Assembly (NCBI RefSeq): GCF_017308075.1
Contig: NZ_JAFKFX010000041.1
Location: forward strand, 1 to 64,000
Direction of reading: 5' to 3'
DNA length: 64,000 nt
DNA from: Allobosea sp.
GTDB taxonomy: Bacteria; Pseudomonadota; Alphaproteobacteria; Rhizobiales; Beijerinckiaceae
In this document: positions 5,269 through 51,261 of the stretch, in pieces
How the letters are laid out: the number at the start of each line of letters is the position of its first letter
How positions within the stretch are numbered: the first letter of the stretch is position 1
Position numbers and translations under genes: made by a program
Notes under the pieces: generated by a model
The model's database searches: none
The model's input: only the letters and a program-made list of their open reading frames with translations
What the model was told of the DNA's origin: nothing

Positions 5269-6702
5269 ATGATGTCGGCGGCGTCCTTGCTCTATCCCGC
5301 CCCACCGACGATCGAAGAGCGCAGCGGTAGCGAATTCATCCCCGCTCACCCCATGCCCCTGCGGCGTGATCCCAATCTGCTTCAGATCGTCATCGGCGCC
5401 CGCCGCAGCCTGATCGAGGGCTGGACCGAGAGCTATTACCGGTCAGGGATCGACAGCTTCCGCATTCTGCGTCGCCAGATCGTCTTCGTGAACAGCCCGG
5501 AGCTCATCCGATACGTCGTGGTGACGCGGCACGGCAATTTCGAGCGCAAGAGCCCGCAGATGCGGCGCGCGCTGGAAGCGCTCCTCGGAGACGGGCTCTT
5601 CATCAGTGACGGCGAGACCTGGAAGAGGCGGCGCCCGCTGGTGGCGGACATCGTCCACAAACGCCGGCTGCCCGAATTCGGACAGACGATGGAGGATGCG
5701 GCGCTCGCCGTCGCAGAGGAATGGGGCGCGTTGCCGGCGCGCTCCGAGGTCGAGCTGACCGAGGAGATGGGGCGCCTGACCGCCACGATCATCTCCCGGG
5801 CCGTCTTCGGCAAGAACATCCCGCGCGACGCGGCCCAGCGGGTCATCGACGGTTTCAGTGCCTATCAGCGCCAGACCGATGCGTTCAATCTCGGCTATTT
5901 CCTCGGCGCCGATGACGGCTGGCCGGCCTTCGGCGGCAAGCGGCGGCGCCGTGCGATGGCGATGGTTCACGACGTCATCGAGAGCGTGGTCAACGCTCAC
6001 CTGGCCGGCGAGGGGGATGCGGGCTCGATGGTCGACCTGCTGATCCGCCGCAACCAGAAGAGCGGGGGCGAGCCGCTGGATCTCGCGGCGCTGCGCAACG
6101 AGGCGGCGACCATCTTCATGGCTGGGCACGAGACGACGGCAACGACGCTGGCCTGGGCCTGGTATCTGCTGGCCAACGCGCCCTGGGTGGCGCGCCATGT
6201 CCACGAGGAGATCGAGACGGCCTGCGGAACGCGTGCCCCGACCCTGGCCGACCTGCCGCGATTGCGCTGGTGCCGCGCCGTCATCCAGGAGACGCTCCGG
6301 CTCTATCCGCCGGTCCCGCTGCTGCCGAGGCAGGCTCTGGAGGCCGACCGCATCGGGCCTGTCGACGTCGAGAAATCGGCCCTGGTCATGATCGCGCCCT
6401 GGCTGCTGCACCGCTCCGTCGATCTCTGGGAGAAGCCGAACCATTTTCTGCCGGAGCGCTTCCTGTCCGGCACGCGGATCGACCCCTTCGCCTATATTCC
6501 CTTCGCGGTCGGCCCGCGGATCTGCCCCGGCATGAATTTCGGACTGGACGAGGCGACTCTGTGCCTGGCGATCCTGGCGCAGCGCTTCGAGGTGCGCCCC
6601 CGGGAGGGCTACAAGGTCGAGCCGGTCTGCCGCCTGACGCTGCGCCCGAAAGGCGGCCTGCCCGCCCGCATCGTCGCGCGCTCTTCCCGCCCACCCCTCT
6701 GA
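5269..6702 (+). CDS. Cytochrome P450
   Basis: A 477-residue P450 with the complete family signature: I-helix AGHETTATT, K-helix ETLR, and the haem loop FAVGPRICPG with the thiolate cysteine at residue 419. There is no membrane anchor, so it is a soluble bacterial-type enzyme needing separate redox partners, none of which is in the window. It starts an operon with an acyltransferase, a ketosphinganine-reductase-like SDR and a sulfotransferase, and faces the PKS-oxoamine synthase operon. Hydroxylation of the polyketide or sphingoid chain, as P450s do in fumonisin-type pathways, is the natural inference; such a hydroxyl could then be sulfated or acylated. Confidence 0.95.
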   Translation: MMSAASLLYPAPPTIEERSGSEFIPAHPMPLRRDPNLLQIVIGARRSLIEGWTESYYRSGIDSFRILRRQIVFVNSPELIRYVVVTRHGNFERKSPQMRRALEALLGDGLFISDGETWKRRRPLVADIVHKRRLPEFGQTMEDAALAVAEEWGALPARSEVELTEEMGRLTATIISRAVFGKNIPRDAAQRVIDGFSAYQRQTDAFNLGYFLGADDGWPAFGGKRRRRAMAMVHDVIESVVNAHLAGEGDAGSMVDLLIRRNQKSGGEPLDLAALRNEAATIFMAGHETTATTLAWAWYLLANAPWVARHVHEEIETACGTRAPTLADLPRLRWCRAVIQETLRLYPPVPLLPRQALEADRIGPVDVEKSALVMIAPWLLHRSVDLWEKPNHFLPERFLSGTRIDPFAYIPFAVGPRICPGMNFGLDEATLCLAILAQRFEVRPREGYKVEPVCRLTLRPKGGLPARIVARSSRPPL

Positions 6703-6719
6703 GACGGACCGCCACAGCC

Positions 6720-7568
6720 ATGCAGAGCCTGGAGAGAATGGCGCATCGGGCTCTACGGCGCCTGCCCATCCCGATGGTGTCGAATCTGGGCGCCCGGCTA
6801 GCTTGGCTCAAGATCCGCTTCATCGATCCTGACGTCGCCCGCAAGGCCCGGGCCAATGTCCGGCGGCATCATCCGGAGATGCCGGAGGCGGAGGTCGAGA
6901 AGCTCGTCTGGCGTTTCGTCGAGAATGTCGGTCGGCTGATGGCCGAGTTCTCGATCGTGCATCGCTTCGCCTCGGCCGACCGGATGGAATTCGTTGGCGT
7001 GGAGGCGCCGCGCGCCAATGTCGGCAAGATCCCGACCATCGCGCTCTGCCTGCATCTCGGCAATTGGGAGGTGCTGGCTTCGGCAATGCAGATGATCGGC
7101 GTTCCGATCGCTTCGATCTCGGAGATCCCCGACAATGCGGCGCATCGCGACATCGCCGATGCGACGCGCGGCGGCTTCGACGTCAATGTGCTCGCCCCCG
7201 ATCGGAACGGCCTGCGCCGTGCGCTGTCGATTCTCGCCGGGAACGGCGTCCTTGCCATCTTTCCGGATGAAAAGCGCGGCGACACGATGATGGCGCCCCT
7301 GTTCGGACGCCCGCCTCACCTCAAGGGCAATCTGGCCATGGCGGCGAAACTCGCCCGGCGCAGCGGGGCGCAGCTCGTCGTCGTCTATTGCGAGCGGATC
7401 ATGGAGACGCGCTTCAGGCTGCATTTCGAGGGACCGTTCTACATGGATCCGGCGCAGACCGACCCGCTCGCCGATGTCGCCTATCTCAACGGCCGGATCG
7501 AGCCCGCCATCCTGCGCCATCTCGACCAGTGGTATTATCTGGACGATTCGATCGGGCCGATCGCATAA
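6720..7568 (+). CDS. LpxL/HtrB-like lysophospholipid acyltransferase family protein
   Basis: A 282-residue member of the LpxL/HtrB-like acyltransferase superfamily, near the usual length (about 290-310). The catalytic HX4E motif is present as HLGNWE with His112 and Glu117. The conserved FPDEKRG region follows near residue 180. The ATG at 6720 lies 17 bases after the P450 stop. Family members move acyl groups from acyl-ACP or acyl-CoA to lipid hydroxyls at the inner membrane. Here, between a P450 and a sphinganine-reductase-like gene, it may O- or N-acylate the polyketide-derived amino lipid; that substrate is inference. Lipid A acylation is less likely because no lpx genes are nearby. Confidence 0.85.
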   Translation: MQSLERMAHRALRRLPIPMVSNLGARLAWLKIRFIDPDVARKARANVRRHHPEMPEAEVEKLVWRFVENVGRLMAEFSIVHRFASADRMEFVGVEAPRANVGKIPTIALCLHLGNWEVLASAMQMIGVPIASISEIPDNAAHRDIADATRGGFDVNVLAPDRNGLRRALSILAGNGVLAIFPDEKRGDTMMAPLFGRPPHLKGNLAMAAKLARRSGAQLVVVYCERIMETRFRLHFEGPFYMDPAQTDPLADVAYLNGRIEPAILRHLDQWYYLDDSIGPIA

Positions 7569-7580
7569 GGGACCGACCTC

Positions 7581-8429
7581 GTGACGGCCCGTTCGGAGAA
7601 TGCTCGCGTGCCAAGCAGCGATCCGCTGAAGGTTGCCGTCGTCTCGGGCGGCTCGAGCGGCATCGGGCTGGCATGCGCGCGCGTCCTGCTGCAGCGCGGC
7701 CATCGCGTCGTCCTGCTGGCCCGAGACGCGGATCGCCTCGCCAGAGCCGCCGCGGCGCTCGATCCGGCGCAGGAAGGCCGTGTCGATGTTCTGGCCTTCG
7801 ACGTCGCCGAGGCCGGAGGTGCGCAGGAGGCGATCGCCAAGGTGGAGGCCCGCCATGGCCGTATCGACTGGCTCATCACGGCCGCGGGGATCGTCGAGCC
7901 GGGACTGTTTCGCGATCTCGACCTGGCGGACCACCGGGCGCAGATGGAGATCAATTATTTCGGGACGCTTCACCTGATCCGGGCAGCGCTTCCCGTCATG
8001 CGCCGCCATGGCGGGCGGATCACGCTCGTCTCCTCGGGGGCGGCCTTCATCGGCATCGCCGGCTATAGCGGCTATGCGCCGGGAAAGTTCGCGGTGCGGG
8101 CGCTCGCGGAGATCCTGCGCGTGGAGCTGGCCTGCGAAAGCATCTCGGTCAGCGTCGCCTTTCCGCCCGATACCGAGACGCCGCAACTGGATGGGGAGAG
8201 GCCGAAGCGGCCGCTCGTGACGCGGCTCGTCTCCGAGCAGGGCGGGGTGATGACGGCGCAGCGGGTCGCCGAGAGCATGATCGCCCAGGCCGAGAGGGGG
8301 GCCTTCGTGCTGGCTCCTTCCAGGACGATCGCGCTGCTGGCCCGGTTCCACAGCCTGTACAGACCGGTGCTGGCATGGCAGCAACGGCGTATCCTGGCAC
8401 GAGATTCCGGTCGGCGCCCGGAGTCGTGA
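7581..8429 (+). CDS. SDR oxidoreductase, 3-ketodihydrosphingosine reductase-like
   Basis: A classical short-chain dehydrogenase of 282 residues: cofactor loop GGSSGIG (23-29), Ser151/152, Tyr165 and Lys169 in YAPGK. The segment VSVAFPPDTETPQ (190-202) is the hallmark of 3-ketodihydrosphingosine reductases (KDSR/Tsc10), which reduce the ketone left by serine palmitoyltransferase. A KDSR-type enzyme makes sense beside an alpha-oxoamine synthase (10714-12075) that would create such a ketone on a polyketide chain. The start is a GTG with AGGGA eight bases upstream; the gap to the upstream acyltransferase is 12 bases. The exact substrate is inferred; the family assignment is strong. Confidence 0.88.
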   Translation: MTARSENARVPSSDPLKVAVVSGGSSGIGLACARVLLQRGHRVVLLARDADRLARAAAALDPAQEGRVDVLAFDVAEAGGAQEAIAKVEARHGRIDWLITAAGIVEPGLFRDLDLADHRAQMEINYFGTLHLIRAALPVMRRHGGRITLVSSGAAFIGIAGYSGYAPGKFAVRALAEILRVELACESISVSVAFPPDTETPQLDGERPKRPLVTRLVSEQGGVMTAQRVAESMIAQAERGAFVLAPSRTIALLARFHSLYRPVLAWQQRRILARDSGRRPES

Positions 8430-8485
8430 GAGGGGGATAGCGGTCCATCGTCCTGCGGCGGCAGGCGTTCCCGGCAAGGCAAGGC

Positions 8486-9274
8486 ATGATCTATATCTGC
8501 TACGGCATCACGAAATCGGCCAGCACCTTCCTCTATCAGTTGACGGAGGAGGTCTTCAGAGCGGCCGGTCGGCCGGTCGCCAGGCTGGGCAAACCGTTCA
8601 GGAAGCTCGATTCCGTCGAAAACTACTTCAACTTCATCGACCACGAACTGCTCGGGGAGATCGAGCGCCATATCGACGGCGCGGATGTCGTCCTCAAGAC
8701 GCATGGGCCGCCGCGCGGCGATGTCGCGGCGCTGGTGACCGCGGGCCGGGTCCTGGCGAGTGCGTCGATCAGGGATCCGCGCGAGATCGCGCTTTCGATG
8801 CTCGATCACGGCACTCGTTCGCGGCGCTGGCGGAACAAGCCGTTCTCGGAATTCGTGACCGTGGCGGACACGTTGAACTCGCTCGACATCCAGCTCGGCT
8901 GCTTTCGCGAATGGGCCGCGGCCGAAAAGGTCGCGATCTTCAACTACAACGAGGTCTGCTACGATAGCGGCGCCGTAGTCCGTGCCATCGCAAGCCAGAT
9001 CGGCGTGAGCGTCGATGTCGACGGCGTTCTGGGGAAATTTCGCGACAAGGGCGTCATCGGGCAGTTCAGCAAGGGCAAGGCGCTGCGCTATTCCGAGATG
9101 AGCGAGGCCGACCAGGCGACGTTCCTCGAACGCTATGCCGAGCTCTACGCCGCCCATGTCTTCGATACCGAGAATGCCCGCCGGGTGGCTGCGGAACAGT
9201 CCTCGCTCGAAATGCGGGCCTCGGGCGAGCTCGCCCAGCACATCACCAATCTCAGGCGCCGCCTGCGCATCTGA
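8486..9274 (+). CDS. Sulfotransferase family protein (PAPS-dependent)
   Basis: A 262-residue protein with the two PAPS-binding elements of sulfotransferases: a 5'-phosphosulfate loop near the N-terminus (ITKSASTFLYQ, Lys10 to Thr14) and a 3'-phosphate site SIRDPREIALSML with Arg96 and Ser104. It is shorter than typical animal enzymes but usual for bacterial members. It is the last gene of the P450-acyltransferase-SDR operon and converges on the glycosyltransferase at 9302. PAPS could be supplied by CysD and CysNC encoded at 29627-32421 in the same locus. The acceptor is probably a hydroxyl of the lipid or of its sugar (inference). Confidence 0.85.
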   Translation: MIYICYGITKSASTFLYQLTEEVFRAAGRPVARLGKPFRKLDSVENYFNFIDHELLGEIERHIDGADVVLKTHGPPRGDVAALVTAGRVLASASIRDPREIALSMLDHGTRSRRWRNKPFSEFVTVADTLNSLDIQLGCFREWAAAEKVAIFNYNEVCYDSGAVVRAIASQIGVSVDVDGVLGKFRDKGVIGQFSKGKALRYSEMSEADQATFLERYAELYAAHVFDTENARRVAAEQSSLEMRASGELAQHITNLRRRLRI

Positions 9275-9301
9275 GGGAAGCGGAGCCCGGCCGAGCCGGT
9301 G

Positions 9302-10717
9302 TCAGCCCAGGACCTTGTCGTAAACGGCCTTGACCCGCTCGGCGTGCCGCTCTGGCGAGAAGAATGCGGCCCGGCTGCGCCCGCGGCTCGCCAATTCCGC
9401 GCGTAGATCGGCATCGGCATCGAGGGTCCGGATCGAATCGCGGATCGCCTCGATCTCGTAGGGGTTCACCAGCATGGCGGCATCGCCCGCGACCTCGGGC
9501 AGGGAACTGGTCGTCGAGGTGATGACGGGCGTTCCCAGCAGCATCGCCTCGAGGATGGGCAGGCCGAAGCCCTCGTAGAGCGAGGGAAACAGCACGGCCC
9601 GCGCGCCCCTGATCAGCGATATCAGCGATCCTCGCGGCACATAGGGCAGGCGCTGGACGCGGCGCTCCGGCCGGATATGCGAGCCGTCGAAGCGCCAGCT
9701 CAGCAGGCGCTCGTCCTGGAGCGTCTCGAGATCCTTGTCGTATTGCCAGCCGAGGCCACCGACGAGAATGAGCGGCCGCGTCGATCCGGAAGCTGCATAG
9801 GCTTCGACCAATCGCGAGATGTTCTTCTTCGGCTCGACGGCGCCGAGGAACAGAAAGTACTCCTTGAAGGCGAGGCCATAGCGGTTCTCGATATCGCGGG
9901 CCACCACATCATCCGAGGTGGAGACGAGGGCTTCGTCCAGCGAGACGGACTGCCATGTGTTGGTGATCCGATTGTCCGGAATGTCGAAGAATTCCTGTAC
10001 GTCACGACGCGTATGCTCGGATACGGTGACGATATGATCGGCCTCTTTCACGAGATGCCGGATCATCGTGTAGAAATACTTCTTGTTGTCCAAAGTCGCG
10101 TAGGGCAGGCGCAGCGGAACGATATCGTGGATGGTATAGATATTGGCCGCGCCCTTCACGAAGGCCGGGGTCGGGCGGGTCACGTGGAACAGATCGTGAC
10201 GCCCCTCGGATTTCACCGCCATTCGCCGCCCGAAGCGATTGAAGTGGAGAAATGCGCGCTCCCAGAACCGGACGGCCCCATGCGTCGGATGGCGCCTCTG
10301 CGCGGTGGTACCGGAACCAGGGTCGAGAACGATGCGCGGCGCCGGCAGGCGCTGGGTCCGGGCGCCCGCAGGCACGCCGATCGTCCAGTCGACCGCACGG
10401 CCGATCATCTTGAGCGGATCGATGGTCTTCGGAGCGGCCGCCTCGTTGAGAACGACTTCGGACAGGAGAGCCTCGCGCCGGTTGATGGCGCGTTCGATGC
10501 CGATCAACAGCTCGACGTCATGACCGAGGCCGGTCGCGGTGCTCGCGAGATTGCGGGCATAGGTCGCGATTCCCGTGCCCTGCTTGAGCGTCATCGCATG
10601 GGCTTCGAGAAGGATGTTCTTCGGCACCGGCTGGGTCCCTGTTGGCGATGTGTCGTCGAAAGCCGCCGATGACGGAGTGGGCGCAGCCTCGCGTGCCACG
10701 GGACGAGGAGAGGTCAT
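9302..10717 (-). CDS. GT4-family glycosyltransferase
   Basis: A 471-residue GT-B fold enzyme of family 4 (glycosyl transferases group 1). The donor site is seen in PSLYEGFGLPILEAMLLG, including the E-x7-E pair, and in FLGAVEPKKNISRLVEAY. The ATG at 10717 overlaps the stop of the oxoamine synthase as ATGA, so the two are translationally coupled and this is the last gene of the PKS operon. A frame opening further upstream (to 10786) is disfavoured because it would run into the preceding gene without a better start. It probably adds a sugar to the PKS-derived lipid in the cytoplasm; donor sugar unknown. Confidence 0.9.
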   Translation of the reverse strand: MTSPRPVAREAAPTPSSAAFDDTSPTGTQPVPKNILLEAHAMTLKQGTGIATYARNLASTATGLGHDVELLIGIERAINRREALLSEVVLNEAAAPKTIDPLKMIGRAVDWTIGVPAGARTQRLPAPRIVLDPGSGTTAQRRHPTHGAVRFWERAFLHFNRFGRRMAVKSEGRHDLFHVTRPTPAFVKGAANIYTIHDIVPLRLPYATLDNKKYFYTMIRHLVKEADHIVTVSEHTRRDVQEFFDIPDNRITNTWQSVSLDEALVSTSDDVVARDIENRYGLAFKEYFLFLGAVEPKKNISRLVEAYAASGSTRPLILVGGLGWQYDKDLETLQDERLLSWRFDGSHIRPERRVQRLPYVPRGSLISLIRGARAVLFPSLYEGFGLPILEAMLLGTPVITSTTSSLPEVAGDAAMLVNPYEIEAIRDSIRTLDADADLRAELASRGRSRAAFFSPERHAERVKAVYDKVLG

Positions 10718-12075
10718 TCGGCCCCGCCGCGCAGAATCTGCTTCAGCGAGGCGTCGCCGAGGTTCCGCACTTCCCGGACCAGACAATCGACGGCGTCGTC
10801 GATCTGGGCGTCGCTATGGGTGGCGTTGATGAAGAAGCGCAGACGCGCCGCCTTCTCCGGCACCCCCGGCGGCACGATCGGAAAAGCGTTGACGCCCTGA
10901 TCGAGCAGGCGCTCGGCCAGCATGACGGTCGGAACTGTCTCGCCGATGACGATCGGAACGACGCCGAAGCCCCAGCTCTCGCCGGTGTCGAGGCCGGCCT
11001 GCCGCGCCCGCTCGCGGAAGCGCTGCGATTGCCGCTGCAGGCGCAGGACACGCTCCGGCTCGCGCCGCATGAGATCGAGCGCCACGGTGGCGGCGACCGC
11101 GTTGGTCGCCGGCATCCCGACGCTGTAGACGAAGCCCGGAGCCTGATGCTTCAGCAAATCGACCGCTGCGGCGCAGCCCGCGACATATCCGCCGCAACTG
11201 ACGAGCGACTTCGACAATGTTCCGAGCCAGAGGTCGACGCCCTGCGGGGCGATGTCCTGATGCTCGAAGATGCCTCGTCCGCTCCGCCCGAGGACACCTA
11301 GACCATGGGCATCGTCGATCATCAGCCAGGCGGAGAAGTCCGTCTTGATCTCGATCAACCGCGCGAGGTCGGGGCCGTCGCCATCCATCGAGAACAGACC
11401 CTCGCTGACGATCAGCACCCGCTCGAACTGGTGCCGGTCCGCCTCGAGCATGGCCTGGAGGGCATCGAGATCATTGTGGGGGAAGATTCGTCGGGTCGAG
11501 CCGGCGAGCTGAGCGCCGACCACGACACAATTGTGGATCAGCGCGTCGTGAAGGATCAGATCGCGCGGCCCGAGCAGCGTGGCGATCGCCGATACCGCGC
11601 CGGCATGGCCGGACACGAAGGCCACGCAATCATCGGTCTCGTAATTGCGGGCGAGCGCACTCTCAAGGTCCCGATGGACCCGGCGCTCGCCTGCGGTGAT
11701 CCGGCTGGCCGAAACGGAGCTGCCGTATTCCGCTACCGCCTTTGCGATCGCATCGGCGATCTCCGGGTGACCGTTCAGACCGAGATAGTCATAGGAGGCG
11801 AAGTTGGTGACCTGCCTGCCTTCGACGACGGAGGTCGCGCCCGCCCTGGCCTCGTGGAGGCGATAATACGGGCTCTCCAACTTTGCGAAGTCGGCAAAGC
11901 TCCTCTGGAACGCCATCTGCTGATAAAGCGGATGATCCTCGAAAGCCATGCTGACGCGCGGCAGATTCCGAACGCCGCGACCGGCCAGGGCCGGTGCGGC
12001 TTGCGGAATCTCCTCCATCTGCACCAGGAGTTTCGCCAGGGCGCCGTCTGAAAGGGGGCGGTTGTCGTGGCTCAT
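10714..12075 (-). CDS. Alpha-oxoamine synthase (serine palmitoyltransferase/AONS family)
   Basis: A PLP-dependent fold-type I enzyme of 453 residues. The Schiff-base lysine is Lys289 in LGTLSKSLVSCGGY; the PLP-contacting DDAHGLGVLGRSGRG spans about 254-268; SYDYLGLNGHPE near 94-105 is typical of this family. Members condense an acyl thioester with a small amino acid, losing CO2, to give an alpha-amino ketone. The gene starts inside the PKS stop (ATGA, 12072-12075), and the PKS has no thioesterase, so the enzyme probably releases the polyketide from the ACP by this condensation, as Fum8 does in fumonisin synthesis. The amino acid (Ala, Ser or Gly) cannot be told. About 50 extra N-terminal residues may be an ACP-docking segment (inference). 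Confidence 0.93.
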   Translation of the reverse strand: MSHDNRPLSDGALAKLLVQMEEIPQAAPALAGRGVRNLPRVSMAFEDHPLYQQMAFQRSFADFAKLESPYYRLHEARAGATSVVEGRQVTNFASYDYLGLNGHPEIADAIAKAVAEYGSSVSASRITAGERRVHRDLESALARNYETDDCVAFVSGHAGAVSAIATLLGPRDLILHDALIHNCVVVGAQLAGSTRRIFPHNDLDALQAMLEADRHQFERVLIVSEGLFSMDGDGPDLARLIEIKTDFSAWLMIDDAHGLGVLGRSGRGIFEHQDIAPQGVDLWLGTLSKSLVSCGGYVAGCAAAVDLLKHQAPGFVYSVGMPATNAVAATVALDLMRREPERVLRLQRQSQRFRERARQAGLDTGESWGFGVVPIVIGETVPTVMLAERLLDQGVNAFPIVPPGVPEKAARLRFFINATHSDAQIDDAVDCLVREVRNLGDASLKQILRGGAE

Positions 12076-12851
12076 TCGGCGGCGGCGCGGCGAGGCTGAC
12101 GAACCATCGTCTCGATCTGGCTCGCCTGTTCGGGTGAGATATCCATCTTCGAATGCACGTTCGCCAGCCTGATGATGGTCGCCTGCATGCTCTCCGCCGA
12201 GGCCGGATCGGTCTCCTCCTCGGCCTGATCCAGCTGGTCGACGATGGAGCCCGCCATGTCGAGGAGGCTGCGGTCGCCGGCACCCACCACCGTGATCTGG
12301 ACGTCGATCGCCGCCTCGAGTGCCATATGCAGCTCCAGAGCCATCAGCGAGTCGAGCCCGAAATCGGCGAGCGGCCGCGTGAGGTCGACATTGCTTTCCG
12401 CCATGCGCAGGATCTCGGCCACCTCTCGGCGCAGGACGCCCGTCACAATCCCGATGGCCTCCTCGCGGCTCTTCCCTCGCAGGCTGGAGCCGAGGTCTTC
12501 GGCATGGGCCGCGCGCGCCTCGCCGCCGGGATTGCCGAGATCGATGAAGGCCGCGCTCTTGAGCAGGTTGAGTTTCTCGGCCCCTGCACCCGGTGTGATG
12601 CCCGCGAAGAACTGCACGGGATCGACGGCGTTGCCGAGTCTCAGGAGCCGGCCGAGATGTGCCAGAGCCTCGAAAGACCGCATCGGCACCACACCGGTCG
12701 CCCGGCGCAGCCGCTGCCCGAGGCGCTTGTCGCGGGCGATGAGGCCGACATCGGAGATGGCGCCCCAGCCGATGGCGAGGCCGGGCTTCCCCAGGCTCCG
12801 GCGGCCGCGCATGAAGCCTTCGAGGAAGCCGTTCGCCGCGACATAGGCGCT
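12072..12851 (-). CDS. PKS C-terminal part after in-frame stop: end of KR, ACP
   Basis: The same reading frame as the large PKS continues here after the TAG at 12852-12854. The first codons read SAYVAANGFLEGF, the KR segment that carries the catalytic tyrosine; then comes GWGAISDVGL, typical of the KR C-terminal end. The acyl carrier domain follows, with its phosphopantetheine serine in FGLDSLMALEL (residue about 2384 of the full frame). If translated separately, the first ATG is at 12812, which would exclude the KR tyrosine but keep the ACP. The gene ends in an ATGA overlap with the oxoamine synthase. With read-through or a corrected base the whole PKS would be 2475 residues. Confidence 0.85.
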   Translation of the reverse strand, partial: SAYVAANGFLEGFMRGRRSLGKPGLAIGWGAISDVGLIARDKRLGQRLRRATGVVPMRSFEALAHLGRLLRLGNAVDPVQFFAGITPGAGAEKLNLLKSAAFIDLGNPGGEARAAHAEDLGSSLRGKSREEAIGIVTGVLRREVAEILRMAESNVDLTRPLADFGLDSLMALELHMALEAAIDVQITVVGAGDRSLLDMAGSIVDQLDQAEEETDPASAESMQATIIRLANVHSKMDISPEQASQIETMVRQPRRAAAE

Positions 12852-12854
12852 CTA
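12852..12854 (-). other. In-frame TAG interrupting the PKS KR domain
   Basis: On the minus strand the frame reads ...LIGSPG, TAG, SAYVAAN.... KR domains usually have Gln at this place (GSPGQ-x-AYVAAN), and CAG to TAG is a single C-to-T change. The stop lies between the catalytic Ser (about 2205) and Tyr (2219). Coding quality is unbroken on both sides. It is a true nonsense mutation, a base-calling error, or (least likely) a suppressed codon. Confidence 0.9.
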
Positions 12855-15800
12855 CCCGGGACTGCCGATCAGCGTCGTCGCTGACGAATAGGCGACGAAG
12901 AAATCGAGCTGATGGTCCGCGGTCGCCTCTGACAGGTTGATGATGCCGTCGACCTTGGTGCGCAACACCGCCTCGAGCCGTTCCGGCGCGAGATTGGCGA
13001 TCAAGCCGTCGTCGAGATGCACCGCCGCATGGATCACGCCGCGAAGCGGGCCATGGTCGCGGGCGAGACGCGCGACGGTCTCCCTGACGGCAGCTCCATC
13101 GCAGATGTCGAGCGCTTCGACGATGACCTGCGTACCAGCGGTCCGCATCTCGGCGAGCTGCGATGCGAGCTCCTCGTCCACGGCGCCGCGGCGGGAGAGC
13201 AGCGCGACATGCGAGGCGCCCTTGCGTGCGAGCCATTGGGCGGTGGCGAAGCCGAGGCCTGCCGTGCCGCCGACGACGATATGGAGTCCGGGCGGAACCG
13301 TGTAGTCCAAAGACGCGAGATCGGTCCGCGCCGTCCGAGGCGGACGGATGACGATCTTGCCGACATGCTCGGACGCCTGCATGGTCCGGAATGCCGCACC
13401 GACTTCGTAGGCTTCGAAGCTGCGATAGGTCAGCGGCCGCAGACCCTGCGTCCGGAAAGCCTCCGACAGCTCGGTCATCATCCCGCGCACCAGATCGGGA
13501 TCGACGGCGAGCAGTTCGTCGAGGTCGACACCGCTATAGGCGATGTTGCGCAGGAAAGGCCGCAAGGCCAGCTGCGTATTGTCGAGAAAGTCGCGCTTTC
13601 CAAGTTCCAGGAAACGCCCGAACGGCTTGAGCAGGCGGAAGCTGGCCAGCATGGCCGGGCCGGCCAGTGAATTGAGCACGACGTCGACGGGGCCGAATTG
13701 CCTGCGGATCTCGCCGGCGAAACGTTCCTGACGCGAATCGAAGACCGCGTCGGCGCCGGCCGCCGTGGCGATGGCGCGTCGCGCCTCGTTGCTCGCCGTC
13801 CCGAAGACACGCGCCCCGTGCAGCTTGGCGATCTGGATCGCGGCGAGGCCGACGCCGCCGGCCGCACCGTGGACGAGGACGTCTTCGCCGGCGCGGACAT
13901 GGCCCCGCGCGACCAGGGCATACCACGCCGTCGAAAAGGCGACGGGGATCGTGGCCGCGGCTTCGAGGTCGAGCCCGTCAGGCGCCGGGAAGAAATGCCA
14001 GTCGGGGCAGGTGATGTGGGAGGCGAACGCGCCGGCGGCGAAGCCCATCACCGGATCGCCCGGCCGCAGCCGCGTCACGCCCGGGCCGACCCGGCTCACG
14101 CGCCCCGCGCATTCGAAGCCGAGTGCCGCGCGGGTCAATCCGGCGCCGAGCAGATCGTCGTCGAGGAGACCGAGGCCGACCATCACGTCGCGATAGTTCA
14201 GCCCGGAAGCGACGATCTCGACCTCGATCTCGCCATCCCGCGGGGCCTCACGCGGCTGGCGTTGCCATTCGAAGCCGTCGAGACCGACGCCATCGGCGAA
14301 ATGGAGGACGGCACGTTCATGCGGACCGAGCGGCGTGTCGAGCGCGATGCCGCGCCGAATACGGCTGACCTCGACGCCCGAATCTGTGATCCGAATGTCG
14401 CGCTCGGCATTGTCGAGCGCGAGAATTCCGGTGAGATCGACGCCGGCCGCATCAGAGATATCGACGAGGCGCAGGTCGATCTCGGGAAACTCGTTGATCG
14501 CGACGCGTGTGAAGGCCGAGACGCCGGCATCCTCGCCCAGGCGAGCGCCGTCGCCGGTATGGGCGTTCTGGGTCAGGACCAGCATGCGGCAAGGCCGCCC
14601 TGCTTCGGCGAGCAGCTTCAGCAGCGCCGCCAGGGTCTCGATGCGCGCAGCCAGTCGGCTGGTGGGCGGCGCGTCCGGGGCCTCGGGCGCGACGACGACC
14701 GTTGCGCGCTCGCCGGGCGGCAGCGCCGCCAGCCAGGTGCCGAGCGCCTCGATGTGGTCGCGATCGACGATCTCGGGATTCGCCAGGCCGTAGCGTGCTT
14801 CGTGAGCGCCGACGATCGCGACATGGTCGGATGCAGCGGGCGCGATGTCGGAGCGGACGGCGCGAGCGCTGGCCAAAGCCAGAACGCGATCCGCGTCGTG
14901 GCCGGTTTCGACGGCGACGACACGTGCCGACTCCAGACGCCGCCGTAAACCGTCCGTCCCGCCCAGCGACGGGTTGCCACGATCCTGCCAGATGGACTGG
15001 GTCGAGCTCCCGAGCAGGAAGGCGAGGTGCAGATCGTCGACGGGCGCGGCGAGCAGGATCGGCGCACCGTCTTCCAGGAGGTCGATGGCGCTGCGCTGCG
15101 CCGCCTCGTTCGTCTCCTGGAACGGCGAGAGCGGCATGCCGAAGCTGATGAGCGCATCGAAGCGCCACGGGGCCGATTTCTCGCTCCCGTCGAGGACCAG
15201 CATGTCGAACAGGCTGCCGACGCCCGGCCAATGCCGCTGCTCGTCGGCCCTCGCGGCGTTGGCGACAGCGAGCATGACCTTGATGCGCCCTTCGCGGGTC
15301 GCGGTCGCCAGCGCTTCCGCCAGTCCGCTGTTCCAGTCGCCGGCGACGAGCACCCGCAGCGGCCGCGTGGCGGCCGCAGTCCAGAGGTCAAGCGTGTGGC
15401 CGACCGTATCGCGCAGCGGCCCGGAAAGCCCGAGCAGGCTCCACTGGTCATGAGCGAAGCCGGCGGGACGCGTATCGATCTCGCCGGTGCGGAGGAACGG
15501 CCCGGCTTGGGTCAATGCCTGCGCCGCCAGGCGCAATTCGCGGTTCGCCGCCGGGAAACGCTGCATCAGCGTGCCGAGCAGGGCTTCCGGCGAAGGCATG
15601 GCGAAGGTCGCGGAGAGCCGTGTGCCGGCCTCGGTGCTCTCCAGCCCTCCCGCCATGGCGAGAATGTCGCGCGCCATCCCGAAAAGCGGCTGGGCGGCTG
15701 TAGCAATCACACCACTGGTCGCGGCGCTCTCGAAGCTGTCGCCGCTCTCCGGCGGCAAGAGATCGCAACAGAGCTTTCGCGCCAGGGAAACGGCGAAGGC

Positions 15801-18800
15801 CTTCAGCAGCAGCGAAAGCTGCTTCGCCTCGCCGGGTTGGCCCCGACCGGGGTCGGCCGCAGCGAGCGGAGGCGGCGGCAGGGCGACGGGAGCGACCGCC
15901 AGACGCTCCTCCCGAAAAGTCCGCTCGACCATGAAGGGCTTGACCAGATGGACGGAGCGCAGGACCGCCGCCTCGATCGAGGCGACGAGTTCGCCCCGAT
16001 CACACATGAGGGAGACGGAGAGCGTCTTGAAGCGGTCGGTTTCCCGCAGCAGCTTGGTCACCGAATGCGTGATCTTCGCCCCCGGCTTCCAGACGCGGAT
16101 CTGCCGGAAACGGATCGGGAGATGCGCCTTGCGCTCCCCGTCCCGCTGCGGCCGCGCGAGGAAAAGCCCGTGGAAGCTTCCGTCCAGCGAGACGGGGTGC
16201 AGCACATGCAGGTCGTCATAGGCTCCGACGCCGCCATCAGGCACGGAGAGGCGGCTTTCGCCAACGGTGTCGTCGCGCCGTGTCGAGAGTACGACCTGGA
16301 AGCGCGGTCCATAGTCGAGACCTGCGCGCTCAGCCGCAGCGTAGATTTCCGCGCCCTCGTTCAGGATCGGGTTCTCGACCGCGGGGATCTCGGGCGTCTG
16401 CGCCGCAGAGGCGGTGTGCAGCGGCCCGAGTACGCCGCGGGCGTGCAGTATCCAGTCGCTGCCGGCGAAACGGCGCCGGCTCCAGATCTCGATCGTCCCG
16501 GTATGCTCGAAATGGCGGGTCGAGATCTCGCGCGTTTCGTCATCGGCGAAGGTCATCGCCTTGGTGATGTCGAATTCCGCGATCTCCAGGGGCACTGCCC
16601 CGAACAGCTCCCGGCTGGCCGCCAGGGCCAGCTCGATCAGCGCCGCCGCGGGCATCACCACGCCGCCATCGACCCTGTGATCGCCGAGATAGGGCAGCAA
16701 GACCGGGTCGAGCAGATTGCGCCATTCCGGCGAACCGTTTGAAACGCGCGCTCCGAGCAAAGGGTGTAGCGGCAGGCTTGCTATCAGGCGACCATGGGCG
16801 TTGAGCGCTTCGCTCGTGCCGTCGAAGTGATACTGCTCCGGCTGGAACGGATATGGCGGCAAGGCTTCAACCGCAGCCGGCGGCTCGCCGAAAACGGCCT
16901 GCTGCTCGTGCCGGACGCCATTGACCACCATGCGAGCGACCACGCCGCGGATCGGATCCCGATCCGCAGGGTCGCTTGCCGACAGCGTCGACAGGATCGG
17001 GTTCTGGGCCTGGCTCGCCCGCAGGATATCGGCGATCGGTCCGACCAGGATCGGGCGCGGGGCGATTTCGACGAAGGCAGCTTCGGGATGGGCCGCCAAT
17101 GCCGCCTCGATCGCCTCCGCGAAGCGCACGGGGCGGCGGATATTGTGCCACCAATACGACGCGTCCAACATGGCGGGAGCCAGCGAATGCCCGGTCACCG
17201 TCGAATAGAACGGGATCTGCGGCTCCTGGCCGGCTATCCCGCCGAGGTCGCGCAGAAGGCCCTCGCGCACGACCTCGAGCGCCCGCGAGTGGAAGGGATA
17301 ATCGACCGCCAGGGGCACGCTGGCGATCCGGCTTCTGCGCGCCAGCCGGGCCAGGACGTCGAGCTGCTCAGCGGGCCCCGACACCGTCGTCGAGGACGCG
17401 CTGTTGTAGGCCGCTATATCGACCTCCGACGTGCCGGCCTGCCGAATGAGATCCTCGACATTGGCCGGGTTGCTCGCCAGAACCAGCATACGGCCTTTGC
17501 CGCGCACCGTTTCCTGATGCCGGCTTCGCTTGTGCATGACCCGCAAGGCGTCGCGACGCGACAGCAGCCCGCAGCATTCCGCCGCCGCGACCTCGCCGAC
17601 GCTGTGGCCGAGCGCGCCGAGGGGGCGGACACCATACTCTGCGAGAACAGCGGCGAGAGCCGACTGGATCGCGAAGATCAGCGGTTGTGCCACCGAGGTG
17701 AGCTCGAGCTGCTCGTCCGGGACCCCGTCGCGCAGATGGTCGGCGATCGACCAGCCGGCGATTTCGGCATAGAGGCGATCAATGTCGTCGATCTCGCGCC
17801 GGAAGGACGGATTGGTCCGATAGGCCGCGACGCCCATCTGCGCGAATTGCGCACCATTGCCGCTGAATACGAAGACTGCGCCGCGTTCCGCCCCGTGAAC
17901 GACCGCGGCCGCGCCGCGCCCCTGCAAATCGGAACCCTGGCCGAATGCGCGCAGGCTCGCGGCCACATCCGCCGCTGCGGTAGAGCCATCCGGGACGGCA
18001 ATGGCCAGTCGATGCGGCAGCAATTCGCGCTGATGCGCGAGGGCGCTCGCGACGCGCGCGACGGCGCGTCCATCCGCAACCGTCTCGGCGATCTGCAGCG
18101 AGCGGGTCTTCAATGCGTCGGCCGTGCCGCCGGAGACGAGCAGCACCTCGGCCTGGCGCGCGCCTGATCCGTTCGTTCCGGCAGGTTCAGGTTTGTGATC
18201 GCGCGCCGCGCGCAGGATCGCGTGTCCGTTCGTGCCGCCGAAACCGTAATTGCAGACGCCGGCGAAAAGATCCCCGTCATCGGAGGTCAGTGTGAGCGGC
18301 TGCGTCAGTGGCGACAGATTGAGCTCATCGAAGGCGATCGCCGTGTTTCGCTCTTCGGTGAACAGCGAGCGGGGTGCGAGGCGATGCTCCAGCGCCAGGC
18401 TCGCCTTGAGCAGACTGGCCAGCCCGGACGCCGCTTCCAGATGGCCGATATTCGATTTGACCGATCCGATCGGCAGCGGCGCACTGCGTCGCCGACCCAG
18501 CCCCTCGCCGATGGCGGCGGCCTCGATGGGGTCGCCGATCTTCGTGCCCGTCCCGTGCGCTTCGACGAATGCGAGCGCTTCGGGCGCGATCCCCGCTGAC
18601 CGGTAGACCGTCTCGATCAGATTCTGCTGCGATTCCTGCGAAGGCAGCGAGATGCCGTTCGTCCGGCCGTCCGCATTCGTGCCGGCGGCAACCACCACGC
18701 TGCGGATACGGCGGCCGGCAGCGACCGCTTCCGGCTCCCTTTGAAGCAGCAGCACCACGGCCCCTTCGGAACGGACATAGCCGTCCGCAGCCTCGGAAAA

Positions 18801-19499
18801 AGGCCGGCACAACCCGGTGGACGAGAGCATGCGTGCCTGAGAGAAGCCGATGAAGGGCACGGGCGAGAGCAGCATGTTCACACCGCCGACGATCGCCAGC
18901 TCGATGTCGCCGGCACGCAGCGCCGAGACCGCCTGTGTCAGCGCGACGAACGAGGACGAGCACGCCGCGTCGACCGTGAAGCTCGGGCCCTTGAGGTCGA
19001 AGACATAGGACAGCCGGTTGGCGAGAACCGACAGCGCATTGCCGGTCATGAAGTGGCTGCCGATCACGGCGGGATCGAGCGCCCCAACGCTCTGGTAGTC
19101 GGCCAGGGAGGCGCCGACATAGACGCCGATATTGCGGCCAGCGAGCGAGGAGGGCGGCAGACCGGCATCCTCGCAGGCGCGCCAGGCTGCCGTCAGCAGC
19201 AGACGCTGCTGCGGGTCCATCTGCTGCGCTTCTCGCGGCGAGATGTTGAACGGTGTCGGATCGAAGCCGAACGCGTCGTCGAGATAGCCCCCGGCGAAGG
19301 TGTAGGAGAAGCCGGGAGCAGGGTCGCCCGGACGAAGGAAACGCTCCACATTCCAGCGCCCATGAGGGCGGGCCGAAACGACGTTACGGCCGGCCGTCAG
19401 CAGCTCCCAGAAGGATTCGAGACTATTCGCACCCGGAAGGATGCACGAAGCGCCGATAATCGCGGCTTCGGTGGGAATTGACTGCTGTCGGAGCGACAT
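12852..19499 (-). CDS. Iterative-type reducing type I PKS, KS-AT-DH-psiMT-ER-KR (frame broken by TAG)
   Basis: Domains by residue: KS 8-430 with Cys180 (DAACSSS), His315 (EAHGTGT) and His353 (SNIGHLEAASG); AT 540-840 with Ser633 (GHSVGE) and YPFHS near 735; DH 901-1190 with His941 (HxxxGxxxxP) and Asp1106; a degenerate methyltransferase-like region about 1280-1530, whose SAM loop reads VLVAGDWNSG instead of a glycine-rich motif; ER about 1740-2055 with VHGAAGGVGLAAIQ; KR from 2065. The KR tyrosine and ACP lie beyond the stop, at 12072-12851. There is no thioesterase. One fully reducing module suggests iterative synthesis of a long alkyl chain. The start is the ATG at 19499 (AGGA about 11 bases upstream); a longer frame to 19598 is less likely because its N-terminus is unlike KS proteins. 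Confidence 0.92.
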   Translation of the reverse strand: MSLRQQSIPTEAAIIGASCILPGANSLESFWELLTAGRNVVSARPHGRWNVERFLRPGDPAPGFSYTFAGGYLDDAFGFDPTPFNISPREAQQMDPQQRLLLTAAWRACEDAGLPPSSLAGRNIGVYVGASLADYQSVGALDPAVIGSHFMTGNALSVLANRLSYVFDLKGPSFTVDAACSSSFVALTQAVSALRAGDIELAIVGGVNMLLSPVPFIGFSQARMLSSTGLCRPFSEAADGYVRSEGAVVLLLQREPEAVAAGRRIRSVVVAAGTNADGRTNGISLPSQESQQNLIETVYRSAGIAPEALAFVEAHGTGTKIGDPIEAAAIGEGLGRRRSAPLPIGSVKSNIGHLEAASGLASLLKASLALEHRLAPRSLFTEERNTAIAFDELNLSPLTQPLTLTSDDGDLFAGVCNYGFGGTNGHAILRAARDHKPEPAGTNGSGARQAEVLLVSGGTADALKTRSLQIAETVADGRAVARVASALAHQRELLPHRLAIAVPDGSTAAADVAASLRAFGQGSDLQGRGAAAVVHGAERGAVFVFSGNGAQFAQMGVAAYRTNPSFRREIDDIDRLYAEIAGWSIADHLRDGVPDEQLELTSVAQPLIFAIQSALAAVLAEYGVRPLGALGHSVGEVAAAECCGLLSRRDALRVMHKRSRHQETVRGKGRMLVLASNPANVEDLIRQAGTSEVDIAAYNSASSTTVSGPAEQLDVLARLARRSRIASVPLAVDYPFHSRALEVVREGLLRDLGGIAGQEPQIPFYSTVTGHSLAPAMLDASYWWHNIRRPVRFAEAIEAALAAHPEAAFVEIAPRPILVGPIADILRASQAQNPILSTLSASDPADRDPIRGVVARMVVNGVRHEQQAVFGEPPAAVEALPPYPFQPEQYHFDGTSEALNAHGRLIASLPLHPLLGARVSNGSPEWRNLLDPVLLPYLGDHRVDGGVVMPAAALIELALAASRELFGAVPLEIAEFDITKAMTFADDETREISTRHFEHTGTIEIWSRRRFAGSDWILHARGVLGPLHTASAAQTPEIPAVENPILNEGAEIYAAAERAGLDYGPRFQVVLSTRRDDTVGESRLSVPDGGVGAYDDLHVLHPVSLDGSFHGLFLARPQRDGERKAHLPIRFRQIRVWKPGAKITHSVTKLLRETDRFKTLSVSLMCDRGELVASIEAAVLRSVHLVKPFMVERTFREERLAVAPVALPPPPLAAADPGRGQPGEAKQLSLLLKAFAVSLARKLCCDLLPPESGDSFESAATSGVIATAAQPLFGMARDILAMAGGLESTEAGTRLSATFAMPSPEALLGTLMQRFPAANRELRLAAQALTQAGPFLRTGEIDTRPAGFAHDQWSLLGLSGPLRDTVGHTLDLWTAAATRPLRVLVAGDWNSGLAEALATATREGRIKVMLAVANAARADEQRHWPGVGSLFDMLVLDGSEKSAPWRFDALISFGMPLSPFQETNEAAQRSAIDLLEDGAPILLAAPVDDLHLAFLLGSSTQSIWQDRGNPSLGGTDGLRRRLESARVVAVETGHDADRVLALASARAVRSDIAPAASDHVAIVGAHEARYGLANPEIVDRDHIEALGTWLAALPPGERATVVVAPEAPDAPPTSRLAARIETLAALLKLLAEAGRPCRMLVLTQNAHTGDGARLGEDAGVSAFTRVAINEFPEIDLRLVDISDAAGVDLTGILALDNAERDIRITDSGVEVSRIRRGIALDTPLGPHERAVLHFADGVGLDGFEWQRQPREAPRDGEIEVEIVASGLNYRDVMVGLGLLDDDLLGAGLTRAALGFECAGRVSRVGPGVTRLRPGDPVMGFAAGAFASHITCPDWHFFPAPDGLDLEAAATIPVAFSTAWYALVARGHVRAGEDVLVHGAAGGVGLAAIQIAKLHGARVFGTASNEARRAIATAAGADAVFDSRQERFAGEIRRQFGPVDVVLNSLAGPAMLASFRLLKPFGRFLELGKRDFLDNTQLALRPFLRNIAYSGVDLDELLAVDPDLVRGMMTELSEAFRTQGLRPLTYRSFEAYEVGAAFRTMQASEHVGKIVIRPPRTARTDLASLDYTVPPGLHIVVGGTAGLGFATAQWLARKGASHVALLSRRGAVDEELASQLAEMRTAGTQVIVEALDICDGAAVRETVARLARDHGPLRGVIHAAVHLDDGLIANLAPERLEAVLRTKVDGIINLSEATADHQLDFFVAYSSATTLIGSPG

Positions 19500-19611: not shown

Positions 19612-20901
19612 TCACGTCCGGGCCGCCTGATCGGTCAGGATCGTGTGAATGAAATGTGACAGTGACGAAAAGTAATCCGACCAGGTGAGCTCGGCATAGC
19701 CGGGAGACGGGGCCAGACGGCGGGGCTCCCCGGACAGCAGCGCGGCGATGGCGGCCTCCCAGCCCGGGCCGTCGATCGGATCGACGAATGTCGTCCCCGG
19801 ATGTCCCACTTCGCGATGCGCAGGGATGTCGGAGGCGATGACCGGCGTGCCGAGGACAGCCGCTTCCACGACCGGCAGGCCGAAGCCCTCGATGAAGGAC
19901 GGCATCAGCAATGCGCGCGCGCCGCTGATCAGCCGCTTGAGCGCCGGGGTCGAGAGGCCGTGAAGCACATGGATGTAGTCGCTCACCTGGCCGGAGCGCC
20001 GCAGGCGATCGAGAATCAGGTCGCCCTGCCAGCCCTTGGCGCCCGCGATCACGAGATGCGGCGTGGCTGGACCATGCTTGCGATACAGGCGCTTCCAGAC
20101 CTCGAGAAGCAGAAGATGATTCTTTCTCAGCTCTACCGCGCCGCAGATCACGAAATACGGGACGCCGGTCAGGGTCGGATCCGGGTCGGGTGCCCCGCGA
20201 AAGATCGAGGGGACGGGCAAGGGCAGCGCAAGTGTCGGCAGTGCCTTGGCGCCGCGGCGCTCCAGCTCCGTTTCGATCGCCTTCTGGGCCGTTCGTGTGG
20301 TGACGATCAGACCGGCGGCATAGCGCGCGGTCTGATCGACCATGGTCGCGTGCGCCTTGACGGCGTGCGGGGCGACGTATTCCGGTGTCTCCAGCGGAAT
20401 GACGTCGTGCAGCATGAAGAGCGGCCGGATATCGGGCCGCCGGTTCAGCCAGCGCAGAAGGAACGGCACCGTCAGACCGACCTGGCCGACATTGACGTAG
20501 ACCGTGTCGCGCCCGAGGCTCGCAACCGCATCCTCGCCAAGGCCGATGCCCGTCGCCTTGAGCAGGGCGGTCATGCGCGCCGTGAGGGTGAGAGCGCCGT
20601 TTGAGGGTAGGTACCAGGAGGATTTGCCGGCCTGGATCGTCGGAGCGAGCGATGTCCAGGCGCCGTCGATCGCGGGCTGCCTGTTCTCCGCCCAAAGTTC
20701 CTCGAGACGCGTGAGGCCACGCAGGACGCGCTCGCGCGAGAAGGTCCGGGTGCCCCATGCCGTGGGCAGGATCGCGCAGCAATCTTCCGTCGAGTGCTCA
20801 AAGAAATGGCGCGCATAGGCCAGATCGACGCGGTCGATGCCCCGTGGCGTCAGGGACAGCGGCCCCAGCAGAAGGCGTGTCGCGTCATAGGCAATAGGCA
20901 C
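19612..20901 (-). CDS. GT4-family glycosyltransferase
   Basis: A GT-B glycosyltransferase of 429 residues with PSFIEGFGLPVVEAAVLG as donor-binding region and VICGAVELRKNHLLLLEVW in the C-terminal Rossmann fold. The start chosen is GTG at 20901, preceded by AGGA at a six-base spacing; an ATG 19 codons earlier adds a tail without family character. It resembles the GT4 at 9302-10717 in fold but is not a close copy. It lies 112 bases upstream of the PKS on the same strand and may share its transcript. Likely adds a sugar to the lipid or glycan of this locus. Confidence 0.88.
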   Translation of the reverse strand: MPIAYDATRLLLGPLSLTPRGIDRVDLAYARHFFEHSTEDCCAILPTAWGTRTFSRERVLRGLTRLEELWAENRQPAIDGAWTSLAPTIQAGKSSWYLPSNGALTLTARMTALLKATGIGLGEDAVASLGRDTVYVNVGQVGLTVPFLLRWLNRRPDIRPLFMLHDVIPLETPEYVAPHAVKAHATMVDQTARYAAGLIVTTRTAQKAIETELERRGAKALPTLALPLPVPSIFRGAPDPDPTLTGVPYFVICGAVELRKNHLLLLEVWKRLYRKHGPATPHLVIAGAKGWQGDLILDRLRRSGQVSDYIHVLHGLSTPALKRLISGARALLMPSFIEGFGLPVVEAAVLGTPVIASDIPAHREVGHPGTTFVDPIDGPGWEAAIAALLSGEPRRLAPSPGYAELTWSDYFSSLSHFIHTILTDQAART

Positions 20902-21019
20902 TAAAGATCCTAAAATTCGTTTAGTTGTGACGGTCGGCCATCGTCGCCTGCTTGCCAAGACAGCCGAGTAGAACGGACTTCATGTCGAAAATCAATCCGA
21001 TCTATACGCCCGGCGATAC

Positions 21020-23554: not shown

Positions 23555-23820
23555 CCTCTGTTCCAACAGGTCGGGCCCGGCTCCTCTGCGTGATCCGCGA
23601 CGATCCTGCAGAACGGCCCGCCTCGCAAGCCGACCCGGTCCAGCTCTAACATCACTGACGCGGCCATGCAGCCATGGCGCGTCGGCTTTCCAGGTTGATC
23701 TGGTGGGAGGTGCGCTCCATAGAAGGCTACGGGCTCCTTCCAGGTCCTCTCCATGGCAGAGAAGACGGCAGTATACTATTCGAAGATCGCTGACGGCGCT
23801 CGTTCCACAGATGGATCGCT

Positions 23821-39111: not shown

Positions 39112-39139
39112 GGCTTTTCCGCTGATTGACGTCGGATCA

Positions 39140-39165
39140 TTTTCATGTTTGCTACCGCGTGAAAA
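39140..39165. promoter_or_regulatory. Candidate RpiR operator
   Basis: TTTTCA (39140-39145) and TGAAAA (39160-39165) form an inverted repeat with a 14-base spacer in the divergent promoter region between the RpiR gene and the transporter operon. A TTGACG at 39126-39131 could be a -35 element for the operon, though no clear -10 follows. Binding is inferred from position and symmetry. Confidence 0.4.
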
Positions 39166-39209
39166 TAAAACTGTCAAAAACGCTCACCTATGGGAACGGA
39201 GAAGGACCG

Positions 39210-40820: not shown

Positions 40821-40856
40821 GCCGCGCTTAGCCCGCTGGCGACAGCAAGCAACATC

Positions 40857-40896: not shown

Positions 40897-40920
40897 CTTT
40901 CGAACGGTCGAGTATTCCAG

Positions 40921-51225: not shown

Positions 51226-51261
51226 ATCGGGTCCAGTTCTGTACTTGCTCTGCGCGGTCCG

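Follow-up and report, generated by a model that had tools for sequence, protein, structure and literature searches.

Organization of the locus

The stretch of DNA studied here, referred to as the window, comprises 64,000 nucleotides of a soil bacterium, Allobosea sp. (below, Bosea; contig NZ_JAFKFX010000041.1, positions 1 to 64,000) and lies within a 101-kb contig of a 5.55 Mb genome. Our subject is a gene for a single-module polyketide synthase (PKS) that is directly joined to the gene of an alpha-oxoamine synthase (AOS), accompanied by a short-chain reductase (SDR) with likeness to 3-ketodihydrosphingosine reductase (KDSR) and by several candidate tailoring genes. The genes form two converging sets, with the P450, the acyltransferase, the SDR and a small protein on the plus strand and GT4, PKS, AOS and a further GT4 on the minus strand:

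5269..6702, plus strand: cytochrome P450 (best solved relatives: putative P450 7wzl, LUTEIN DEFICIENT 5 and P450 BM3)
~6699..7568 (start approximate), plus strand: LpxL-type acyltransferase (PF03279)
7581..8429, plus strand: SDR, KDSR/RkpH-like by its PPDTET motif and by profile comparison
8486..9274, plus strand: small protein, probable sulfotransferase by fold match of a predicted model
9302..10717, minus strand: GT4 glycosyltransferase, its start overlapping the AOS stop (ATGA)
10714..12075, minus strand: AOS of the RkpG/SgaB type, its start overlapping the PKS stop (ATGA)
12072..19499, minus strand: single-module type I PKS of the RkpA type, KS-AT-DH-(spacer)-ER-KR-ACP (Pfam domains on two frame pieces)
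12852..12854, minus strand: in-frame TAG within the PKS KR, the KR end and ACP lying behind it (frame reading and Pfam)
19612..20958, minus strand: second GT4 glycosyltransferase, upstream of the PKS (domain match)

According to Pfam, the PKS carries KS, AT, DH, ER and KR domains and one ACP, and no thioesterase was matched in it at an E-value of 0.001, in agreement with the original prediction of a single-module reducing PKS lacking that domain. The predicted coupling of the AOS to the PKS stop codon was also seen, as the AOS ATG overlaps the PKS TGA by 4 bases, and the overlap between the AOS stop and the GT4 start is ATGA as well. Both the SDR with its PPDTET motif and the P450 are on the plus strand and face the PKS and AOS, just as had been described.

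The in-frame stop of the PKS

The original prediction, though right on the domain set of the PKS, overlooks the in-frame TAG at 12852-12854. Read plainly, the PKS protein stops there, without the KR end and without ACP. The KR profile match spans the TAG, with profile positions 1-145 before it and 148-179 behind it, and the sole ACP also lies behind; judged by the KR motifs, the TAG presumably stands just ahead of the KR stretch that holds the catalytic Tyr. The 259 codons behind the stop show an identity of 83-85% to two relative loci (L056 and L058). Ratios of nonsynonymous to synonymous substitution (dN/dS) behind the stop are 0.12, 0.13 and 0.20 against three relatives, and those of AOS, SDR and P450 against the same three are 0.12-0.26; as pairwise values of this kind are dominated by the period preceding the stop, they argue against long decay only. 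Since the codons behind the stop are conserved with low dN/dS, the stop would be recent, or an assembly error, or read through. Concerning the 105 relative loci examined (L056-L160, with some genomes present twice), 91 have a frame of at least 900 codons that contains a KS or AT motif; it extends over at least 2,420 codons free of stops in 89 of them, and in L056 and L089 it is clipped by the locus edge. No such motif was present in the remaining 14 loci; frames of 2,439-2,494 codons occur in three of them (L065, L079 and L081), and the other 11 have none longer than 1,801, partly due to contig ends. Because of the in-frame stop, the pathway may be silent in the sequenced strain.

Linkage and distribution of the PKS-AOS pair

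Synteny was studied in 80 named loci, the best 80 of at least 573 AOS relatives, so that the linkage figures hold for the closest relatives. Loci had flanks of 10 kb, flanks and contig ends can hide genes, and all gene-presence counts over these loci use bit-score thresholds of our own choice. In 76 of the 80 loci, the 3' part of the PKS lies no further than 1 kb upstream of the AOS and shares its strand. The exceptions are L093, where the AOS is at the end of the locus, L123, with the PKS on the opposite strand, L145 and L147. In a second set of 46 loci from genome samples, the PKS 3' part was found within the fetched 1.5 kb upstream in 40; the six loci without a PKS match (L034, L035 and L052-L055) are distant, with identities of 39-47%. 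As judged from gene order, the PKS-AOS layout is more than chance, because the two genes are linked in 76 of the 80 named loci, and the conserved linkage that the original prediction had anticipated is present in both sets.

The AOS query at an E-value of 1e-60 or better found 15 of 61 genomes, namely its own, 11 of the 36 others of the genus and 3 of the 24 of the order. At 1e-85, matches were obtained in 13 of the 289 genomes of a class sample and 23 of the 398 of a phylum sample (own genome included). With AOS matches in a minority of genomes, the locus is accessory by its distribution. Bosea sp. OK403, AAP35 and Leaf344 are among the genomes with AOS relatives.

Several of these loci deviate in layout. 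Five of the distant AOS relatives (L034 and L052-L055) have no PKS match within 1.5 kb and form a clade of their own, and in L035 (693-1475) an SDR of the window type (47% identity, 195 bits) follows an AOS relative that lacks a nearby PKS match. A Caballeronia locus (L157:12955-13881) has a gene for an LpxC-family deacetylase between PKS and AOS, and a gene resembling lipoteichoic acid (LTA) synthase before the PKS. One genome of the same family (G249) harbors two PKS-AOS copies on two contigs (L024 and L036), with 69 and 64% identity to the window AOS. In Planktothrix (L159:5602-13200), the AOS is the C-terminal part of a gene annotated as a type I PKS, and this fusion supports a role of the AOS as a chain-releasing unit.

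Identity of the alpha-oxoamine synthase

Using the single AOS sequence, serine palmitoyltransferase (SPT) 3a2b was the first match in the PDB, with 206 bits. A family profile of the AOS gave 303 bits for the same SPT, 299 for ThAOS, 289 for KBL, 276 for plant LCB2, 260 for AONS and 130 for solved SphA. In two trees, the PKS-linked AOS enzymes form a clade separate from 5-aminolevulinate synthase (ALAS), KBL, SPT and BioF. The first tree consisted of selected rows, comprising 37 PKS-linked loci and the window; eleven rows were removed for shortening and long branches before the second tree of 48 rows, for which five of the eight BioF reference loci L177-L184 were used (L177 was left out), and both trees are without Fum8, SxtA and SgaB rows. 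The PKS-AOS clade of 30 rows has a support of 93/99, and of 100/99 once the five relatives without a PKS within 1.5 kb join it (48-row tree). It includes the AOS of Sinorhizobium meliloti rkp-1 (L156) as well as those of Caballeronia (L157), a Pseudomonas plasmid (L158) and Planktothrix (L159).

Two assignments were tried and rejected. The AOS is not taken as the biotin enzyme of the genome, as it scored 341 bits with the NCBIfam model of BioF (cut-off 426) and is sister to the five BioF rows but outside them. Neither is it taken as a true SPT, with 278 bits for the Bacteroidota-type SPT model (cut-off 640) and a position outside the SPT rows in both trees. The whole genome has no BioF above cut-off. 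Its two other strong proteins of the AOS family are ALAS (550 and 604 bits, cut-off 339, on contigs 28 and 46), and by these model scores the window AOS is therefore the only candidate found in the genome for a sphingoid-base enzyme. The alphaproteobacterial SPT model had no match in this genome at an E-value of 1e-150, and 3 of 76 class genomes had one.

The SDR as a candidate 3-ketosphinganine reductase

The PPDTET motif of the window SDR presumably resembles that of animal KDSR. All 12 cluster SDRs compared, among them the ones from S. meliloti and Rhizobium sullae, carry PPDT.TPQ without variation, and the window SDR has 38% identity to the RkpH-type SDR of S. meliloti with PPDT.TP in common. 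A profile of the cluster SDRs placed the 3-ketodihydrosphingosine reductase TSC10 (8jat) first in the PDB (153.3 bits, E-value = 7e-44), with the two-domain SDR 2et6 close behind (152.8 bits summed); the next free-standing single-domain SDR reached 135.6 bits. With the single window SDR sequence, TSC10 ranks eighth. As a control we used the other SDR type of these clusters, which is matched with at least 130 bits in 29 of the 80 loci, often together with an LTA-synthase-like match; with its profile, TSC10 was not in the best 60 of 173 PDB matches. Because TSC10 is first with one profile and absent from the best 60 with the other, the KDSR affinity is, as far as profile comparison goes, specific to the window/RkpH-type SDR, and the KDSR likeness suggested earlier is upheld. 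The idea of PPDTET as a universal KDSR signature was rejected, since TSC10 has no PPDT letters in the profile alignment, and the motif is thus no test by itself.

Tailoring genes and the outer part of the locus

Modification genes around the core were foreseen in the original prediction, and a P450, an acyltransferase, GT4 and a sulfotransferase-like fold are indeed present. For the small protein at 8486-9274, neither Pfam nor NCBIfam gave a match and no PDB sequence match was convincing; its predicted model has a sulfotransferase-like fold according to Foldseek. P450, acyltransferase, SDR and sulfotransferase occur together beside PKS-AOS in L056, L058, L061 and L078, the acyltransferase match of L061 being weak (54 bits). 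Beyond the core, the following genes are relevant to the proposed pathway:

21779..23566, minus strand: WcbI-domain protein, a polysaccharide biosynthesis family (domain match)
23821..25566, plus strand: fatty acyl-AMP-ligase-like enzyme with a possible starter-loading role (family match)
27773..28549, minus strand: fatty-acid hydroxylase superfamily protein (PF04116)
29627..31531, minus strand: GTPase and APS kinase fusion of the CysN-CysC type, sulfate activation (domain match)
31528..32421, minus strand: PF01507 protein in the CysD position beside CysN-CysC
32506..33663, minus strand: Wza-type polysaccharide export protein (PF02563)

The fatty acyl-AMP-ligase-like enzyme has further matches in L059, L062, L064 and L079. 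A PF10118 hydrolase and two methyltransferases are also found in the outer part of the locus.

Comparison with known systems

The original prediction held that no bacterial system with this set had been described, which does not stand. SgaA, SgaB and SgaC of Pseudomonas fluorescens MYb115 were published in 2025, and the available part of that report states that the PKS and AOS were shown to make sphinganines, that sphinganine production can be controlled by deleting or inducing sgaAB, and that a KDSR-like SDR, compared with FUM13 and SphF, was proposed for the reduction step (PMC12134224). The same part counts 6,101 homologous sga clusters, expects PfSgaB to use L-serine, gives PfSgaB-derived products detected by liquid chromatography-mass spectrometry (LC-MS) and includes a phosphoglycerol sphingolipid among the Sga products (PMC12134224). 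Like the Bosea locus, Sga combines a monomodular PKS, an adjoining AOS and a KDSR-like SDR; in the main text as it was available, however, the terms "P450" and "sulf" occur 0 times, as do "rkp" and "capsul" (PMC12134224). The related Pseudomonas plasmid locus (L158) has an AOS 49% identical to that of the window and an SDR of another type.

The same trio is present in the rkp-1 region of S. meliloti (L156), where we find in order an export protein, PKS, AOS, SDR, a PF00884 (sulfatase) frame and a Capsule_synth (PF05159) protein; the names rkpA-G-H-I-J were assigned by position, as the record gives none. Its PKS matches that of the window with a best tblastn piece of 36% and 764 bits, and the PF00884 protein is assigned to the LTA-synthase type because it resembles two annotated LTA synthases. 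A PKS, an AOS overlapping it by 4 bases and an SDR with PPDTET are common to both loci (consecutive in rkp-1), as is an adjoining polysaccharide export gene. They differ in that rkp-1 has the PF00884 and PF05159 proteins, whereas Bosea adds P450, acyltransferase, sulfotransferase and GT4. Over the 80 named loci, 19 have LTA-synthase-like and 18 Capsule_synth-like matches, and 33 have either. PF05159, the family that includes KpsC and KpsS, has no match in the window and 0 in the genome (control genomes were positive); RkpI, likewise, has no match in the window and 0 in the genome, in a search without a positive control. An anchor of a Kdo capsule in Bosea was rejected because the genome is without a PF05159 match.

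As for function, the consulted part of one source attributes to rkpA the synthesis, and to rkpGHIJ the modification and transport, of a lipophilic molecule that is a possible carrier or anchor of the capsular polysaccharide (KPS; PMC3557214). In the part seen of another, S. meliloti KPS sits on a lipid anchor, rkpA is among the genes affecting KPS, and a paper dealing with a phospholipid anchor is cited among the references (PMC5539429). Two details of the S. meliloti record (CP090106) differ from its annotation or from the literature: the PF00884 frame in the RkpI position (L156:20280-21839) has no gene in the PLSDB table, and the replicon is labeled pSymB, whereas the rkp-1 region is called chromosomal in the portion of PMC3557214 at hand. 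WcbR and RkpA are treated as homologous PKSs of capsule clusters in the accessible part of PMC3908369, and Burkholderia wcb, by that description, resembles Bosea in its capsule-linked monomodular WcbR-type PKS and the WcbI family.

The fungal logic emphasized in the original prediction is better described as that of a widespread proteobacterial lipid module. Fumonisin and sphingofungin pathways (Fum8, Fum13 and SphA) share with Bosea a reducing PKS, release by an AOS, KDSR-like reduction and P450s; since the AOS profile gives solved SphA a far lower score (130 bits) than SPT (303) and KBL (289), the likeness is one of analogy, not of membership. The PKS-AOS-KDSR-like core is thus already known from other bacteria, and the decorated Bosea set appears to be a new variant, because P450, acyltransferase, GT4 and sulfotransferase are added and no PF05159 match is found. 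Among titles and abstracts of a mostly open literature, no paper joining rkp or wcb with sphingolipids was recognized, which is a weak negative.

Proposed pathway and alternative explanations

We give a probability of roughly 60% to the reading that this locus is the Bosea version of the PKS-AOS lipid module of RkpA/G/H and SgaA/B/C, making a sphingoid base that is then decorated. The one-module PKS, with the domains listed above, would assemble a long, saturated acyl chain with its own ACP as carrier, and the translationally coupled AOS would release it by decarboxylative condensation with an amino acid. By analogy with SgaB this is most likely L-serine, which would give a 3-keto-sphinganine-like base whose ketone the KDSR-like SDR may reduce. 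The enzyme families fit this order, from PKS chain to AOS release to KDSR-like reduction, as originally proposed. The P450 might then hydroxylate the chain, the LpxL-type protein acylate it and the coupled GT4 add a sugar, in an order and on substrates that are conjectural, as they are for the putative sulfotransferase, which would add sulfate with supply by the CysD/CysN-CysC genes. The pathway probably ends in a glycolipid of the cell surface, or in the lipid that anchors a polysaccharide handled by the adjoining export genes.

Several observations weigh against this reading. The PKS frame is interrupted by a stop. In the AOS profile search the lead of SPT is small (303 bits versus 299 for ThAOS and 289 for KBL), and in the 48-row tree the nearest sampled neighbor of the AOS clade is BioF and not SPT (98/96); SPT was its nearest neighbor (84/80) in the first tree, which has no BioF rows, and was replaced once BioF was included. 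Of the earlier view that set the AOS apart from primary metabolism, the place outside the BioF, SPT, KBL and ALAS rows thus stands, and a nearness to SPT does not. BioF uses alanine. In our analysis, the sisterhood counts against descent from SPT and not against the suggested function, because the PKS-linked SgaB is expected to use L-serine and gave products in LC-MS. Additionally, the sulfotransferase call comes from a model with a mean pLDDT of 67 and a best Foldseek E-value of 0.009, and the tailoring block is not fixed, since L060 has no acyltransferase match and L067 neither a P450 nor an SDR match. Finally, the Sga phosphoglycerol product stands against a Bosea genome with no RkpI-like or PF05159 match, and the end product must therefore differ from that of Sga.

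The stop ahead of the ACP also raises the question whether the locus is, in this strain, a pseudogene set without product. This we consider unlikely, if by no means far-fetched, and it is compatible with the sphingoid-base reading for the relatives; the frame is open in those relatives, and the low dN/dS behind the stop (0.12-0.20) and of AOS, SDR and P450 speaks against long decay. A different view of the module itself would be that it makes a lipid carrier or anchor of polysaccharide that is no sphingoid base, the AOS making some other amino ketone. The rkp-1 region has the same trio and, in the parts cited, is described as making a lipophilic molecule, possibly a KPS carrier or anchor (PMC3557214; PMC5539429), and Capsule_synth-like or LTA-synthase-like matches occur in those 33 named loci; yet the PKS-linked SgaB serves sphinganine synthesis in the part seen of its report (PMC12134224), the SDR profile points to KDSR and PF05159 is unmatched in Bosea, which leaves this view with a rather low probability. 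We regard as improbable, and as the least likely of the three, that the product is a small secreted sphinganine analogue instead of a membrane or surface lipid. The enzyme order is that of fungal sphinganine analogues, tailoring by P450 and sulfotransferase would suit a metabolite, and the distribution is patchy (11 of 36 other genomes of the genus), but the neighbors are polysaccharide genes (Wza type, WcbI and GT4) and no exporter of small molecules came to notice in the region from 5 to 24 kb.

Building on the sphingoid-base reading, we offer more tentatively, at somewhat poorer than even odds, a unifying proposal that groups rkp-1, wcb, sga and the Bosea locus in a single enzyme family, all of whose members would make a polyketide-derived sphingoid base that anchors surface glycans, with the head group replaced in Bosea by a sulfated one and SPT dispensed with. 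In the capsule versions, the LTA-synthase-like protein in the RkpI position would add phosphoglycerol to the base, and the phosphoglycerol base would be the acceptor for linker enzymes of the KpsS/KpsC type, replacing lyso-phosphatidylglycerol. Group 2 capsules of Escherichia coli start on the glycerol of lyso-phosphatidylglycerol. A phosphoglycerol sphingoid base would thus be an economical glycan anchor, because Sga lipids carry phosphoglycerol and the E. coli capsules start on glycerol. As the same three enzyme kinds are present in Sga and rkp-1, a sphingoid base is predicted as the rkp-1 lipid. In Bosea, hydroxylation, acylation, glycosylation and sulfation would take place instead and could lead to a sulfated lipid resembling glycosphingolipids and formed without SPT.

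The locus is thus of interest for its connection with rkp-1 and for the sulfated Bosea variant, and not for the PKS-AOS-KDSR set itself. With RkpA/G/H set beside SgaA/B/C, the question of the rkp-1 lipid becomes directly testable for a sphinganine-type base. If the proposal is true, a module is re-used with different head-group enzymes, the product here being sulfated, and bacteria where no SPT is found can still form sphingolipid-like lipids.

Other features of the window

Promoter- and terminator-like sites in the window are not above chance (1 and 4, compared with 1.8 and 7.6 in shuffles), and no tRNA was found in it. An open frame of 1,244 aa at 49354-53088 has no Pfam match at an E-value of 0.001. 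Two divergent genes at 21-1514 and 1632-5126 encode large proteins with similar N-termini, the second of which has 1,164 aa and contains TPR repeats and a glycosyltransferase domain. Finally, an RpiR-type regulator opposite an operon for a peptide-type ABC transporter, ordinary in appearance, is located at 38239-44787.

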